Below, piece by piece: positions 7,472 through 19,845 of a stretch of 39,983 bases of DNA (position 1 is the stretch's first letter; each line of letters begins with the position of its first letter). The DNA lies in assembly GCA_020718085.1 (NCBI GenBank), contig DYDB01000011.1, positions 1 to 39,983 of the forward strand. Direction: 5' to 3'. The translations under genes and the position numbers were made by a program. The notes below the pieces were generated by a model that did not search any database, was not told where the DNA came from, and saw only the letters and a program-made list of their open reading frames with translations. Source of the DNA: Micavibrio sp. GTDB taxonomy: Bacteria; Patescibacteriota; Minisyncoccia; Moranbacterales; GCA-2747515.

Positions 7472-9022
7472 CTACCTTGCATATTCCACAGCACGCACTT
7501 CGCGCATCACATTGATCTTGATCTCTCCAGGATATTTCAATTCTTCTTCGATCTTATCGGCAATGTTTCGTGCAAGTTTTGCAGCACCAAGATCATCTAC
7601 GGTTTCCGGCTTTACAAATACACGGATCTCACGACCGGCTTGAATTGCATAACATTTTTCCACTTCCGGAAAACTGTTTGTAAGTGATTCCAATTCTTCC
7701 AAACGCTTCAGATAATTTTCCACCGTATCCTTACGTGCGCCAGGACGCGCTGCAGAAAGAGCATCTGCTGCGGATACGATATAAGATTCCGGCGTAGAAT
7801 ATGGATATTCGTCATGATGTGACATCATTGCATCGATCACACGTTTATCAATATTAAATTTCTGCAAGATCTTAATACCAATCTCCACATGTGTACCTTG
7901 AACTTCATGATCCACTGCTTTACCAACGTCATGAAAAAGCCCTGCCATTTTTGCCACTTTTACATCACACCCCAATTCAGCAGCCAAAGCACCTGAAAGA
8001 TAAGACACTTCCAATGAATGAAGGAGTACATTCTGTTTGAAACTTGTACGGTAGCGCAAACGTCCCAAAATATACAAAAGCTTTGGGTCCAGTCCTGCAA
8101 TACCCACTTCATACGCGGCTGCATCTCCCGCCTCACGAATACGACTGTCGATCTCTTTTTCTGCCCATACAACAACTTCTTCGATCTTAGCTGGATGAAT
8201 ACGTCCGTCTTCGATCAATTTTTCCAATGCGATCTTTGCAACTTCTCTGCGCACAGGATCGAATGATGATAAAACGATCGAATCCGGCGTCTCATCGATG
8301 ATCACTTCCACACCAGTCATTCGTTCTAATGATCGAATATTGCGACCTTCTTTACCAATGATCTTTCCCTTGATCTCCTCAGAGGGAATCATCAGTGTGG
8401 ATGTCATTACCTCGGCCGCATGCGAACGAGAATATTTCTGGATCACATGTGTCATAATATCACGCGCTTCTTTTTCCAAATCTTCATGTGCTTGTTTTTG
8501 CAAGCGTGCAGATTGTTGTGCAAAATCTTCACGATTCTGTTCTTCTGTAAGCTGTAAAAGTGCTTTGCGCGCCTGCTCTTGCGTCAATTCACTAATGCTT
8601 TCGAGACGTCGCATTTCTTCTACACGCATTTCTTCTATGCGCGTGCGCACATCTCGCACTTCTTGTGCCTTTGCCTCCAATGCCTTTTTATATTCCTCTG
8701 ATTCTTCAAGTTTGCGATCAAGGAGATTTTCCCGCTTTTCCAAACGTTTTTCTGTAGAACGGATCTCTTGTTTACGTTCGCGCTCTTCTTCTTCAGCTTT
8801 TTCACGAATCGAAACCACCTTATTCTTTGCTTCGAGTTCGATCTCTTTAGCTTTATTTTTTGCTTCGAGTTCGATCTCTTGTGCCTTACTTTTTGCTTCT
8901 GTGATAGTGCTTTCTGCTGTTTTGGCTTGATTTTTGGCAATGGTCTGTCGCACAACATAACCAACACCAGTACCCACAGCCAACGACGCAATCACCATCA
9001 ATAATAGCGTTGAACTTATCAT
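7472..9022 (-). CDS. rny: Ribonuclease Y
   Basis: RNase Y is the membrane-anchored endoribonuclease that starts mRNA decay. The 516 residues match the family. There is one N-terminal membrane helix (4-25), then a long coiled coil (about 30-200) with a near-duplicate Lys/Glu/Ala segment at 50-69. The KH domain has GKIIGKEGRNIR at 219-230. The HD phosphohydrolase domain has metal-binding H364-D365 in LFHDVGK and a later MMSHHDEYPYSTPE. It appears monocistronic, with a strong terminator. Anchoring RNA decay at the membrane fits a small cell with few other nucleases visible here. Confidence 0.96.
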   Translation of the reverse strand: MISSTLLLMVIASLAVGTGVGYVVRQTIAKNQAKTAESTITEAKSKAQEIELEAKNKAKEIELEAKNKVVSIREKAEEEERERKQEIRSTEKRLEKRENLLDRKLEESEEYKKALEAKAQEVRDVRTRIEEMRVEEMRRLESISELTQEQARKALLQLTEEQNREDFAQQSARLQKQAHEDLEKEARDIMTHVIQKYSRSHAAEVMTSTLMIPSEEIKGKIIGKEGRNIRSLERMTGVEVIIDETPDSIVLSSFDPVRREVAKIALEKLIEDGRIHPAKIEEVVVWAEKEIDSRIREAGDAAAYEVGIAGLDPKLLYILGRLRYRTSFKQNVLLHSLEVSYLSGALAAELGCDVKVAKMAGLFHDVGKAVDHEVQGTHVEIGIKILQKFNIDKRVIDAMMSHHDEYPYSTPESYIVSAADALSAARPGARKDTVENYLKRLEELESLTNSFPEVEKCYAIQAGREIRVFVKPETVDDLGAAKLARNIADKIEEELKYPGEIKINVMREVRAVEYAR

Positions 9023-15326: not shown

Positions 15327-15355
15327 TTGACATATTTGATATTTTATGATATAAT
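15327..15355 (+). promoter_or_regulatory. Consensus promoter, copy 1 of the shared unit
   Basis: A perfect TTGACA (15327-15332) and TATAAT (15350-15355) with a 17-bp spacer. The conserved leader starts about 6 bp downstream, at the expected transcription start. Confidence 0.9.
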
Positions 15356-15360
15356 TGCCT

Positions 15361-15424
15361 ATTACAGTATCAGAGTGCACACATCGTGTCTCACACTGTA
15401 AAAACATTTTGTTAACTTAAAAAC
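15361..15424 (+). ncRNA. Conserved structured 5' leader, copy 1
   Basis: The leader can fold as TTACAGT paired with ACTGTAA (7 bp), enclosing GAG/CTC and ACAC/GTGT stems around a 3-nt loop. It is followed by an A/T-rich single-stranded part containing GTTAACTTAAAAA. It is highly similar to 16763-16826, and the substitutions between the two copies inside the stem keep it paired. I recognise no known riboswitch or leader family. It may set mRNA stability or bind a regulator. Confidence 0.7.
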
Positions 15425-15456
15425 TTCATATACTACTTACCCAGGAGGGTACGATC

Positions 15457-16143
15457 ATGGCCGAACAAAAAAAAGAACCCGTAGTAAAGACTATCTTGAA
15501 AGAAGGTACCAAGGAAGCTGTTGCTGCCGCGGGAGGTTTTGTCGGGCTAGCCGCACTAATCAAAAAATACATCTTTCCAAGCAATTCTCCGGATGCAAGT
15601 CCTGGAACTGAAGGCTTACAGGCAGATAAGATTGGACGTGGCCAAGCCGATGAAGCGTTATTCTACGAAGCTGTCGCAGAGGCAGCAAAAAAAATTGAGC
15701 CAACAGATAAGGATGCACGTGAAGACTTGATCAAGCGGTTCTTTACTGCTTTTAATAAACTCAAGCCAACTTCACGCAAAAACGCCATTCTGTGTCTTGG
15801 TTTATCGGAAAGTAAGACGACTGTCACTGATCCAAAAGGTGGCAATGTAAACACAACGTCGTCAAACACGCGCGGTATCAATATTTTAGAGTCATGGCTT
15901 CAGTTGGATGCCAAAACTCTCAAAAAAGTTCTTGCCGCACCCGTGCAGCCCTTTGATATCGCGAAAGAGCGCATTAAAGAGCTCGACGGTTTTTGCAAAA
16001 AGATCAACACGGAAATGGTTAAAATCCACGGAGATCTTCCCGCAAGCAAAACGCCGGATAAGCGCAAGGAATGCCGAGAAGAACGTCGTAAAAAAATTGG
16101 CACAAATCCACTCTCAAGTCTTTTCTCACGGAGGAAAAAATGA
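15457..16143 (+). CDS. Unknown soluble protein, first gene of shared-leader operon
   Basis: This encodes 228 residues and is basic at both ends. Residues about 18-42 are hydrophobic and Ala/Gly-rich (AVAAAGGFVGLAALIKKYIF), possibly a membrane-associated helix. The rest is helical and charged, ending in a Ser/Arg/Lys tail (SLFSRRKK). No family is recognised and no catalytic motif is visible. The start is well supported by AGGAGG 8 bp upstream. Its stop overlaps the next gene's start (ATGA at 16140-16143), so it is translationally coupled to a membrane protein, and the pair may form one complex. It carries the conserved leader. Confidence 0.85.
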   Translation: MAEQKKEPVVKTILKEGTKEAVAAAGGFVGLAALIKKYIFPSNSPDASPGTEGLQADKIGRGQADEALFYEAVAEAAKKIEPTDKDAREDLIKRFFTAFNKLKPTSRKNAILCLGLSESKTTVTDPKGGNVNTTSSNTRGINILESWLQLDAKTLKKVLAAPVQPFDIAKERIKELDGFCKKINTEMVKIHGDLPASKTPDKRKECREERRKKIGTNPLSSLFSRRKK

Positions 16144-16634
16144 TCCAAAATATAATCGACCTTATCCGACACATTCTGCATGGCAACTATTTCGAAGACG
16201 CAGAAGACTGGTTCGTCGAAAAAACGAACCCTCTGTATCAAGCGATAGTCTTTGGCATCATCGGCTTTATGCTCATGGTTGCCATCGGGATCACTGCAAA
16301 CATCTACGGATTCAAAGGCATTAATCTTGTCTTCTGGATCCTGTGCTTGATTGCAATCTTGACCTTACTCCTCTATGGAAGACACATCTTTCGCATAGGA
16401 GTTGCAGGCGCTGCATACGGTGTTGCAAAATCAGGTGTCAGTGGTCTCGACGCCGGTGTTGTACTGCTCAAACAGTACTACCGGTTTGGACTTCTGTTAG
16501 TGATGATCGTCACAGGCATATTCGGCCTGTTACTTTTCATCAATTTTACCTGGGTTAGTGCAGGTTTCGGAGTTTTTGGCAGCATATTTCTTGCTGCTAT
16601 GCAACTGCGAGACCCACAAACAAAAAAGGCGTAA
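16140..16634 (+). CDS. Unknown four-TM membrane protein
   Basis: This encodes 164 residues. A short amphipathic N-terminus (MIQNIIDLIRHILHGNYFED) precedes four hydrophobic segments at about 34-53, 60-78, 113-131 and 133-152. Between the second and third is a Gly/Ala/Val stretch (GVAGAAYGVAKSGVSGLDAG). I recognise no family. The start has GGAGG at 16130-16134 and overlaps the previous stop. Coupling with the upstream protein suggests a membrane complex of the two. A strong terminator follows. Confidence 0.85.
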   Translation: MIQNIIDLIRHILHGNYFEDAEDWFVEKTNPLYQAIVFGIIGFMLMVAIGITANIYGFKGINLVFWILCLIAILTLLLYGRHIFRIGVAGAAYGVAKSGVSGLDAGVVLLKQYYRFGLLLVMIVTGIFGLLLFINFTWVSAGFGVFGSIFLAAMQLRDPQTKKA

Positions 16635-16647
16635 CAACGCCATAAAA

Positions 16648-16690
16648 AAGAGGCAGAAACAATCATTGTTTCTGCCTCTTTCCTTTTTTA
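16648..16690 (+). terminator. Terminator of the first shared-leader operon
   Basis: A long perfect stem (AGAGGCAGAAACAAT and its complement) is followed by TTTCCTTTTTT. Confidence 0.92.
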
Positions 16691-16728
16691 TAGATAAAAA
16701 ATTGCTTTATATTGATTCAAATGTAATA

Positions 16729-16757
16729 TTGACAATTAACTAATTATATGATATAAT
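16729..16757 (+). promoter_or_regulatory. Consensus promoter, copy 2 of the shared unit
   Basis: A perfect TTGACA (16729-16734) and TATAAT (16752-16757) with a 17-bp spacer. The last bases before the -10 (TATGA) match the first copy too. Confidence 0.9.
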
Positions 16758-16762
16758 ACAAA

Positions 16763-16826
16763 ATTGCAGCATCAGAGTGCACATATCGTGTCTCAAGCTG
16801 TAAAAACGTTTGTTAACTTAAAAAAT
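16763..16826 (+). ncRNA. Conserved structured 5' leader, copy 2
   Basis: This has the same layout as copy 1. The closing stem is TTGCAGC/GCTGTAA. Compared with copy 1 there is one G-U for A-U change, one U-A to C-G double change, and a U-G for C-G change at the tip of the inner stem. The downstream GTTAACTTAAAAA part is also conserved. It begins at the expected transcription start and ends about 35 bp before the Shine-Dalgarno sequence. Confidence 0.7.
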
Positions 16827-16862
16827 TTATATAAAATATTTCACTCATCCAAGGAGATTACC

Positions 16863-17639
16863 ATGAGAAAATCAGTAAAGTGGTTCATCATTATTTTTGT
16901 TATCTTAATTTTTTTAGGTAACTATGGCTACATCATGTATGGCAGTTTCGAAGTAGACACTGACGGCTATACAGCAGACCAAGCTGGCAAGAAAGTGGCC
17001 TATAAACTTCACGGTGCGTATAGTCAAGCCAAAATCGATCAGTGTTTCCGAGATATAGGAATTGATCCTGATCCTAAAAATCTAGAAAGATTGGAAAGCA
17101 AGATTCTTTCTGGGGCGCTCAAGCCGAACGATGCACTCAAAGAATGCATTGAAAAAAAAGTAGATGGATACGCCTCTCCAAAGCAAGATCTCACTAAAGC
17201 GGCAAAAGCTGTGAGAGAAATTGTTGCAGGAGAACCAGAGCTCGTTTGGACGCAGGTTGGTGAGATGAAATATACTCCCAATCAACCCGGTTGGCAAACA
17301 CGCAAAATCGCAGTGCCTGCTGGTAAGGGAAAATGTCGGATCACCTGCACCAAAGGATATAATCAATTCTTTAATGATTACGGTCATACTGAATATATCC
17401 AACCTGGTGGATGGCGAAGTGCGCAAGACATCACCCTTGAAGACACACGTTACACAGCATTGGCACAATTAATAAAAGTTGGTGGCATTACCCATTCAGT
17501 AAAAAGCCACGAATTTTCTTGTAACACTGAGGTTGAGGCTTCATTCACACCGAATATGAGCCCTGACGACCCGAGTGATTACGCAAAAAATCAGGGAGAA
17601 GCAATATTTTTTGTTGAAAAACAAATGCCAAAATCCTGA
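16863..17639 (+). CDS. Unknown membrane-anchored extracytoplasmic protein
   Basis: This encodes 258 residues from ATG 16863, chosen because AAGGAG lies at 16851-16856; an upstream TTG reading from 16764 would start inside the conserved leader. One N-terminal membrane helix (about 6-26) follows MRKSVKW, so the remainder is probably outside the membrane. The body has five Cys residues (CFRDIG, CIEKK, CRITC, then a late C) that could form disulfides. No family is recognised. It shares promoter and leader with the operon at 15457, so the two units probably respond to the same signal. Confidence 0.85.
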   Translation: MRKSVKWFIIIFVILIFLGNYGYIMYGSFEVDTDGYTADQAGKKVAYKLHGAYSQAKIDQCFRDIGIDPDPKNLERLESKILSGALKPNDALKECIEKKVDGYASPKQDLTKAAKAVREIVAGEPELVWTQVGEMKYTPNQPGWQTRKIAVPAGKGKCRITCTKGYNQFFNDYGHTEYIQPGGWRSAQDITLEDTRYTALAQLIKVGGITHSVKSHEFSCNTEVEASFTPNMSPDDPSDYAKNQGEAIFFVEKQMPKS

Positions 17640-17702: not shown

Positions 17703-18314
17703 TTAGAAAATATTCACAATTTGTGTCACAATCACAAGTGAGAGAATTGCTACGATAAGACCGATGATCGCATATTGAATGGTCTTTTTTGCCATATCGG
17801 CGCGATCTGAACCGGCAGATGTGATGTACATAATACCACCCACCACAAGCATAATGACTGATAACGTACCGATAACACTGAGAAGTACTTTCAACGCCTC
17901 AAGAATGATTTGACTGAGCGTACGATTTGCCGCAGGTGCAGTGTTTGGTGCAGTGCCGCCGAGTACAGTATAGATCTCTTTTAGAAGTGCGGGCGCCGCT
18001 ACTGCAATTGCCAAACCGATGATCGCTGCAGTCAGCGCAGTTTTTGCTAGTGTTACACGTCCTGAGTCTCCCGCTGATGTGATATAAATAAGTCCACTCA
18101 CCACGATCATAAGCACAGCAAGAATAGCAACAACACTCTGCACAGCAGTAAGTACATTGCCAAGAGCTTTTTCTACAGTTGGTGCACTGATCGGATTTTC
18201 AAATTTTGCGCTTCCACTATCAACAGCATAAATATCTGTCACAAAAATGTTTAAAGCAAAAATAGATGCAAGGACAGGAATGGCAAGTGGGTAAATAACT
18301 TTTTTGTATTGCAT
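17703..18314 (-). CDS. Double T4SS pilin-like protein (two tandem modules)
   Basis: This encodes 203 residues from ATG 18314; a longer reading from 18377 overlaps the neighbouring gene. A signal peptide is followed by two copies of the pilin-like module: the first around YITSAGDSGRVTLAKTALT, the second around YITSAGSDRADMAKKTIQ. Each has a hydrophobic helix before and after the polar loop, giving four membrane helices in all. This is the pattern of the VirB2/TrbC-like pilin family (PF18895-like) found widely in Patescibacteria. It is the last gene of the cluster and the only one with two modules, so it may be a fused dimer or a cap or base subunit. Confidence 0.82.
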   Translation of the reverse strand: MQYKKVIYPLAIPVLASIFALNIFVTDIYAVDSGSAKFENPISAPTVEKALGNVLTAVQSVVAILAVLMIVVSGLIYITSAGDSGRVTLAKTALTAAIIGLAIAVAAPALLKEIYTVLGGTAPNTAPAANRTLSQIILEALKVLLSVIGTLSVIMLVVGGIMYITSAGSDRADMAKKTIQYAIIGLIVAILSLVIVTQIVNIF

Positions 18315-18336
18315 AATGATATATAAATAATATTTA

Positions 18337-18684
18337 TTAAGAATTCGCCCCAAGCGCATCTCCCACAAAAAGAACAATCACATAGCCAAGAAGAGCAACT
18401 ACCAAACCGGTAATCGCATAGACCAACGTATCTTTTGCTTTATCAATTCTTCCACTGTCACCATTCGCTGTAATATACATCACTCCAGAAGCAATAATCA
18501 TCAACACCGCCAATGAACCCACAATCCCCAAAACCCACATGATCACTCCTTCCAAAACACCCAAAAGACTATAATTATGCACCAGGCCATGTGAATTTGG
18601 TTTTGTTAATTGAGCAAAAGCATCATGTGCAAAAAGAATGAATGGAACGCACATGAAAAATATTTTATATACAGATTTTTTCAT
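18337..18684 (-). CDS. T4SS pilin-like protein
   Basis: This encodes 115 residues. A signal peptide ends after AFA at about residue 24. A 20-residue spacer precedes two membrane helices (about 46-70 and 88-110) separated by the loop TANGDSGRIDKAKDTL. This matches the module of its neighbours: GIMYIT-like helix end, Gly-Asp, basic residue, AK, then a second helix rich in Gly, Leu and Val. It sits 22 bp before the double-module gene and 34 bp after the next paralog, so the three are probably one transcript. It may be a structural subunit of an envelope fibre or a DNA-uptake/secretion complex. Confidence 0.82.
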   Translation of the reverse strand: MKKSVYKIFFMCVPFILFAHDAFAQLTKPNSHGLVHNYSLLGVLEGVIMWVLGIVGSLAVLMIIASGVMYITANGDSGRIDKAKDTLVYAITGLVVALLGYVIVLFVGDALGANS

Positions 18685-18718
18685 TTTTGTATCGTTATTT
18701 TTTTACAATAGAACGTTT

Positions 18719-19066
18719 CTACCAACTCACACCAAGTGTAGTGCCCACAACAATGACAATTACAAATGCCAAAAGTGCGATTACCAATCCAACAATCGAT
18801 GCGATGAGCCATTCTTTGGCTTTCTCCGCTTTACCACTATCCCCGCCGGCTGTGATGTACATAATGCCGGAAACTACAATCATGAGCACAGCGAGTCCGG
18901 CGATCAGACTGATCACAAACTTTGAGACATTATCCAAAACCGTGGTTACTTCACTACTTGGCAATCCCGTTCCCGAAGGAAGCGTGATGCCATTCTTTGC
19001 CGCATGCACAGTCAAAGGTAATGATACGATAAATAAAACTACTAGGAGAGAGAGGGTCTTTCGCAT
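18719..19066 (-). CDS. T4SS pilin-like protein
   Basis: This encodes 115 residues. A signal peptide (1-22, ending in VHA) is followed by a short polar segment and two membrane helices around the loop TAGGDSGKAEKAKEWL. It has the same fold pattern as its neighbours but differs at many positions, so it is an old paralog rather than a recent copy. A TATAAT-type -10 (19092-19097, minus) lies 26 bp before the start, just behind the terminator of the preceding paralog, so it may begin a separate transcript with the next two genes. Confidence 0.82.
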   Translation of the reverse strand: MRKTLSLLVVLFIVSLPLTVHAAKNGITLPSGTGLPSSEVTTVLDNVSKFVISLIAGLAVLMIVVSGIMYITAGGDSGKAEKAKEWLIASIVGLVIALLAFVIVIVVGTTLGVSW

Positions 19067-19111
19067 AAATTTATTTTAATTTTCTTCTTTTATTATACAA
19101 CGCAAAACAAA

Positions 19112-19144
19112 AAAAACAAAGGTTTTGTATCCTTTGTTTTTTTG
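19112..19144 (-). terminator. Terminator within the pilin cluster
   Basis: An AAAACAAAGG/CCTTTGTTTT stem with a long T-run on the minus strand splits the cluster into at least two transcripts. Confidence 0.85.
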
Positions 19145-19160
19145 TAGAGTAAACTTATTT

Positions 19161-19505
19161 TTACTGCAATGCAGAACCAACTGTAAGTACGATTACGTAA
19201 CCGAGAAGTGCAACAACCAAACCAATGATTGCAGATGTTAACAAGCTCTTTGCTTTATCAACACGACCTTCATCACCGCCCGACGTAATGTACATGATAC
19301 CAGCAATCACAATCATGAGAACTGCCAATGAGCCGAGGAATGTGAGTAACCACTGGATTATAGTAAGGATCAATTCATCAGCATCTCCTGCTGTTGGCAC
19401 GCCACCTGGATCACTTGGTCCGTTGTATTGTGCTAAAACAATTGCTGGAAGAGCAAGAACTGTTGATGAGACTGCAAAAAATGCTTTTTTCATTTTTTTC
19501 ATCAT
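19161..19505 (-). CDS. T4SS pilin-like protein, strong ribosome-binding site
   Basis: This encodes 114 residues. A signal peptide (about 1-25, ending in VLA) is followed by an N-terminal spacer with GPSDPGG and two membrane helices around TSGGDEGRVDKAKSLL. It is the only pilin-like gene here with a near-perfect Shine-Dalgarno sequence (AAAGGAGGTG), and it has its own terminator. Both hint that it is the most highly expressed member, possibly the major subunit, but this is inference from signals only. Confidence 0.84.
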   Translation of the reverse strand: MMKKMKKAFFAVSSTVLALPAIVLAQYNGPSDPGGVPTAGDADELILTIIQWLLTFLGSLAVLMIVIAGIMYITSGGDEGRVDKAKSLLTSAIIGLVVALLGYVIVLTVGSALQ

Positions 19506-19572
19506 TTACATACACCTCCTTTCTTTGTTTGTATTTTTCTTTTCATATATCTATTATCTCACACTTTTATTT

Positions 19573-19845
19573 TTATACAAGATGGACAACCGTCGTCACA
19601 ATCACAAGCGAAAGAATTGTCACAACAATTCCGATGATACTCCCTACCAGCGCTTTTTTTGCCAGCATCACTCGCTTTGAGTCTCCGCCTGCCGTCATAT
19701 ACATGATACCTGCAACAACACATGCGATCACGGAAAGCGTTCCAACAATTGTTAACAAAAACATCAGCACCGCATCAAAATATGAGCTGATCGGCGGTGC
19801 ACTCGTGATCACTCCAGCGTAAACATCATTAATCAAAAATAACAT
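19573..19845 (-). CDS. Short T4SS pilin-like protein
   Basis: This encodes 90 residues, the shortest member. A brief N-terminus (MLFLINDVYAG) leads to helices around TAGGDSKRVMLAKKAL. The signal peptide is weak or shortened compared with the paralogs, so the true start could lie elsewhere or it may use a different export route. It is the first gene of the cluster in the transcribed direction, 46 bp after the solute-binding lipoprotein stop. Family assignment is good; its particular role is unknown. Confidence 0.75.
   Translation of the reverse strand: MLFLINDVYAGVITSAPPISSYFDAVLMFLLTIVGTLSVIACVVAGIMYMTAGGDSKRVMLAKKALVGSIIGIVVTILSLVIVTTVVHLV

Follow-up and report, generated by a model that had tools for sequence, protein, structure and literature searches.

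The locus lies within a window of 39,983 nucleotides, the whole stretch of contig DYDB01000011.1 that we analysed, from the genome (G000) of an uncultured member of the order Moranbacterales. Two transcription units follow each other on the forward strand, the first with genes A and B and the second with gene C (Table 1). Each has its own TTGACA-N17-TATAAT promoter, as the initial annotation had stated, with all 12 positions matching and an additional TGn extension of the -10 element. In both units 5 nt separate the -10 element from the start of a leader block, in agreement with the earlier placement of the leaders about 6 bp past the -10. The stem of a hairpin begins 1 nt into this block. From the promoter geometry we infer that transcription starts at the stem base or within 1-2 nt of it.

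Table 1. Positions of the leader units and neighbouring features in the window
Feature	Position	Strand	Remarks
RNase Y gene	7475-9001	-	leader locus about 6.4 kb away
Promoter 1, extended -10 (TGn)	15327-15355	+	12/12 match; -35 TTGACA 15327-15332, -10 TATAAT 15350-15355, spacer 17; arrangement common to all relatives
Leader hairpin, copy 1	15361-15401	+	MFE fold; covariance model R3, 59.8 bits; conserved pairs; closing stem 15362-15368 with 15395-15401; inner stem 15373-15375 and 15377-15380 with 15386-15392
Leader 1 tail	15402-15432	+	A/U-rich, single-stranded, with GUUAAC; 27/31 conserved between copies
Gene A	15457-16143	+	ORF, 228 aa, helical, no assigned family; homologues in G001, G003, G004, G005
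Gene B	16140-16634	+	ORF, 164 aa, apparent membrane protein, no assigned family; aligned with relatives; overlaps end of A
Intrinsic terminator, unit 1	16647-16681	+	16-pair stem, then T run; separates both units
Promoter 2, extended -10	16729-16757	+	12/12 match; -35 TTGACA 16729-16734, -10 TATAAT 16752-16757, spacer 17
Leader hairpin, copy 2	16763-16803	+	MFE fold; covariance model R3, 56.2 bits
Leader 2 tail	16804-16833	+	A/U-rich, with GUUAAC; from sequence comparison of copies
Gene C	16863-17639	+	ORF, 258 aa, hydrophobic N-terminal segment, no assigned family; homologues; mosaic between relatives
T4SS-pilin genes (PF18895)	17703-19845	-	tandem array, convergent with the leader units

Comparison of genes A, B and C with Pfam, NCBIfam, PADLOC and PHROGs gave no convincing match, a search of IMG/VR found no relative of gene A, and the AlphaFold models are of low confidence (pLDDT 49 for C and 57 for A). 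That the genes encode envelope proteins, as initially proposed, can be inferred only from apparent membrane segments. The G000 gene C protein appears to be a mosaic, related to G001/G003 in its N-terminal half and to G004 in its C-terminal half, at about 50% identity each (L045 2427-3122; L047 805-1575). Pilin arrays similar to that of the window occur in the relatives, and in all six genomes the leader units point toward convergent pilin-like genes, the window genes having been tested against PF18895 and those of the relatives recognised by their similarity. On the opposite flank lies nusA in the window, and similarity points to the same gene in G001, G002 and G004; G005 has a gene for a ribosomal protein (rplT-like) there, and the G003 contig begins near the promoter.

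Sequence and fold of the leader

The leader blocks of the two units (15361-15432 and 16763-16833) are identical in 63 of 72 columns (88%), as against 9/17 in the promoter spacers and 0/5 in the discriminators (Fisher p = 3e-5). The genes directly downstream are unrelated (BLASTP E 0.83), so that the description of near-identical leaders in front of unrelated genes holds. Five substitutions distinguish the hairpin copies. Two sites are in loops (15382 C>U, apical loop; 15394 C>A, internal loop) and the rest fall in the closing stem, where 15364 A>G changes A-U to G-U, and 15368 U>C together with 15395 A>G changes U-A to C-G. Both closing-stem changes had been recognized before, but the C-G to U-G change assigned to the inner stem is the apical-loop substitution at 15382. 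By themselves the two window copies give a single compensated pair; the main structural support is drawn from the relatives.

The window copies fold with minimum free energies (MFE) of -12.0 and -13.9 kcal/mol, and the folding z-score, about -1.9 over 64 nt, is about -3.3 when the hairpin of 45 nt is taken by itself. In an alignment of ten copies (A10), pairing holds in 89.7% of cells for an outer helix of 7 pairs and an inner helix of 6, compared with 27-47% for slid registers. Three pairs are changed on both sides, namely 4-41 (U-A/C-G), 9-36 (U-A/C-G) and 16-31 (G-C/A-U). The covariation score was reached by 0 of 500 shuffles on a shallow phylogeny, one genus in depth and thus with few independent changes. 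RNAalifold yielded -6.2 versus -0.2 +/- 0.56 for column shuffles, 1 in 1000 of which was as good. Among wobble cells, G-U outnumbers A-C by 11 to 5, in favour of the transcribed strand, and the covariance model scores 59.8 bits on the plus and 10.8 bits on the minus strand. We regard the block as a real leader RNA element, with compensatory pairing kept across the genomes compared.

When the nine distinct leaders are folded as isolated 45-nt sequences, with the start predicted from the promoter, their MFE ranges from -8.6 to -13.9 and at most one 5' nucleotide is unpaired. Among 49 other promoter-like sites, one had an MFE of -9 or lower and a stem beginning within 3 nt. The details of the fold vary. 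Pair 9-36 is open in five of the nine distinct copies, and the upper inner stem of G000 has a shifted register with a 5'-side bulge, most other genomes having a 3'-side bulge. In G005 an alternative 5' hairpin is stronger than the consensus (-9.9 versus -8.2), with the 5' end still paired. The exception to paired 5' nucleotides is the full-length fold of the second G004 copy (G004b), in which other pairing beats the hairpin; the hairpin is also weaker in the first G002 copy (G002a). A perfect AUCACAGU-N6-ACUGUGAU hairpin is present in both G005 leaders (L048 3633-3654 and 4941-4962, minus strand), in competition with the consensus fold. A conserved terminator hairpin with U run was found neither in the window leaders by terminator scan nor in the full-leader folds.

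Distribution of the leader in related genomes

The covariance-model search of relatives suggested in the initial annotation led to further copies in 5/5 same-genus genomes examined. Together with G000 this makes ten copies in six genomes, all at the matching locus, and the closing stem is kept in the further copies with compensatory change. Model R1, built from the two window copies, had its best outside matches (E 0.02 and 0.11) in G001 and G003, each lying precisely in front of the homologue of gene A, and reading of the loci revealed two copies each in G004 and G005. Model R2, built from eight copies (G000, G001, G003, G004 and G005), gave a blind match in G002 (E 3.4e-6); a second copy 860 bp upstream (E 0.38) was accepted on promoter and position. 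Every copy follows a TTGACA-N17 promoter, with the stem base 5-7 nt past the -10. Weak R1 matches in G027, G039, G011, G046, G052 and G037 were rejected as they lack the combination of promoter and pattern, as was one within a pilin ORF (L046:2799), and R2 matches in G012, G006 and G008 were taken as chance because the promoter context did not match. At the thresholds applied, and with strict filters that could miss divergent copies, no copy was accepted among 131 genomes from elsewhere in the order (R2) or in a sample of 384 genomes from the class (R3). A DNA search of 142 relatives gave, outside the own genome, just short chance-like matches of 17-26 nt.

Each genome has one or two copies at a single locus, located before gene A, B, C or an SPFH-like gene. 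A small regulon, as initially proposed, is therefore present in a modest sense, but it is confined to one locus. The order is leader-A-B, leader-C in G000 and G005; leader-A-B-C in G001 and G003; leader-A, leader-B-C in G004, where adjacency is inferred from two contigs sharing end sequence; and leader-B-like, leader-SPFH-like gene plus small ORF in G002, the SPFH-like gene matching Pfam Band_7 below the cut-off (E 0.0024). Within a genome the hairpins are identical at 40/45 (G000), 41/45 (G002) or 45/45 (G005) positions, as against 29-31/45 between G000 and those relatives with which it was compared.

Several further elements recur at these loci. The longer leaders of G001, G003, G004 and G002 have a second hairpin, GAACC..GGUUC, which is imperfect in G002a and G004a (L045 1190-1235; L046 230-270; L057 1215-1250, minus strand; L083 1715-1740 and 2575-2600). 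It is followed by (A/G)UUAACAA ahead of the Shine-Dalgarno sequence. In G001 and G003 an AAUGGU behind the first hairpin could pair alternatively with ACCAUU in the second. Near-identical terminator hairpins of the ACGGTCGTGCGCAATGCGCACACCGT type close leader units in several genomes (L045 3120-3155; L048 2825-2845 and 3745-3775, minus strand; L057 365-400, minus strand).

None of the 4227 families of Rfam 15 matched the leader at gathering score, which agrees with the earlier remark that no known riboswitch or leader class was recognised, and on the plus strand nothing overlapped the leader hairpins even at E 5. The leader resembles the cis-regulatory candidate leaders of Rfam in its conserved hairpin, its compensatory changes and its place upstream of protein genes; it differs in matching no Rfam 15 family and in being found in one genus so far. 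A literature search for leader RNAs or mapped transcription starts in this bacterial group found none. The recurrence of the hairpin at the matching site in all five relatives suggests a shared control or protection signal on the RNA that is absent from the RNA family library.

Possible roles of the leader RNA

The genome encodes RNase J, at 482 bits on a separate contig, as well as RNase Y at 623 bits, each above the cut-off, and a search for RNase E/G found none. The enzymes for a 5'-end-dependent decay route are thus present in the host. It is in cells of this kind, with RNase J and RNase Y but no detected RNase E/G, that a hairpin at the 5' terminus protects mRNA best. B. subtilis provides an example, since long stretches of mRNA can be stabilised there by a hairpin placed upstream of them at the 5' end (PMC3997798). 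We tentatively favour, at slightly less than an even chance, a role of the leader in sequestering the 5' end and raising mRNA lifetime, probably while also being read by a trans-acting factor. On this view the block would combine a strong promoter with a structured 5' leader RNA particular to the genus. With transcription starting at or near the stem base, the hairpin would enclose the 5' end and hinder pyrophosphate removal and RNase J attack, giving a long-lived, well-expressed mRNA for the proteins of the locus. The trans-acting factor would probably recognise the conserved inner loops and the A/U tail, and would coordinate the split units. The initial annotation had spoken of a regulatory or stability element, and its stability part gains indirect support. 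E. coli ompA and papA and B. subtilis aprE provide comparable leaders, with a hairpin at or near the mRNA 5' end and then a single-stranded A/U-rich stretch before the ribosome binding site. Those are known as single-gene leaders, whereas the Moranbacteria leader is a recurring, sequence-conserved module before different genes at one locus, and stabilisation, a property of the former, is predicted for the latter.

A pure stabiliser would need no sequence conservation, yet the G000 block is conserved outside the stems. We propose a trans-acting partner because the leader sequence was kept in G000 while spacer and discriminator diverged; the conservation beyond the stems and the likeness within genomes suggest either such a partner or gene conversion. 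The same contrast (63/72 versus 9/22) would also fit an element that is mainly regulated, with internal loops and tail bound by a small RNA, a metabolite or an RNA-binding protein that thereby switches how the locus is translated or its RNA decays, 5' protection being secondary or absent. The copies are more alike within than between genomes, as if following one partner, and the longer leaders place their second hairpin before the Shine-Dalgarno sequence. However, a terminator or Shine-Dalgarno-sequestering alternative is not conserved over all copies, the hairpin, at 41 nt, is short for a riboswitch aptamer, and there is no Rfam relation, so that we consider this reading possible but on balance doubtful. 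Simple recent duplication of a promoter segment, with no function of its own beyond the promoter, would account for the alike copies within genomes, about 0.9-1.4 kb apart where measured, and for the spacers that the G005 and G002 copies also have in common. Given that spacer and discriminator but not the leader diverged in G000 and that the structure is kept across six genomes, it appears highly improbable.

The main rival outside RNA, which we regard as improbable, is that a repressor binds the block as double-stranded DNA, an operator just downstream of the promoter. The closing arms do form an inverted repeat (half-sites TTACAG/CTGTAA) just downstream of the -10, as in a repressor operator over a transcription start, and a position from +1 to +41 would suit a repressor. 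Near-direct AGTRC..AGTRY repeats lie 11 bp apart, with G/A changing together in several genomes, and G005 has a perfect 8-bp palindrome, ATCACAGT-N6-ACTGTGAT. Against an operator, the distance between the arms varies from 26 to 28 nt with indels in unpaired parts, the pairing contains bulges and G-U wobbles that favour the transcribed strand, and the pair of copies within one genome differ in their arms (TTACAGT/ACTGTAA and TTGCAGC/GCTGTAA) with the RNA pairing kept. Wobbles, bulges and indel positions are thus explained less well by a DNA operator than by an RNA.

Post-transcriptional control in Patescibacteria is almost unexplored, and the authors of a 2024 perspective foresee a key role for regulation at the level of translation in their differentiation, by mechanisms as yet unknown (PMC11665869). 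On a more speculative view, to which we assign a low probability, the leader class may mark, within this genus, an expression slot for changing, fast-evolving surface-type genes beside the T4SS-pilin array. If this is true, an RNA-binding factor could switch the slot genes jointly, for instance as cells alternate between a stage attached to the host and a free one. The leader itself is compact and conserved, with clear boundaries and stems open to mutation, and it points to a set of proteins that are probably co-expressed.
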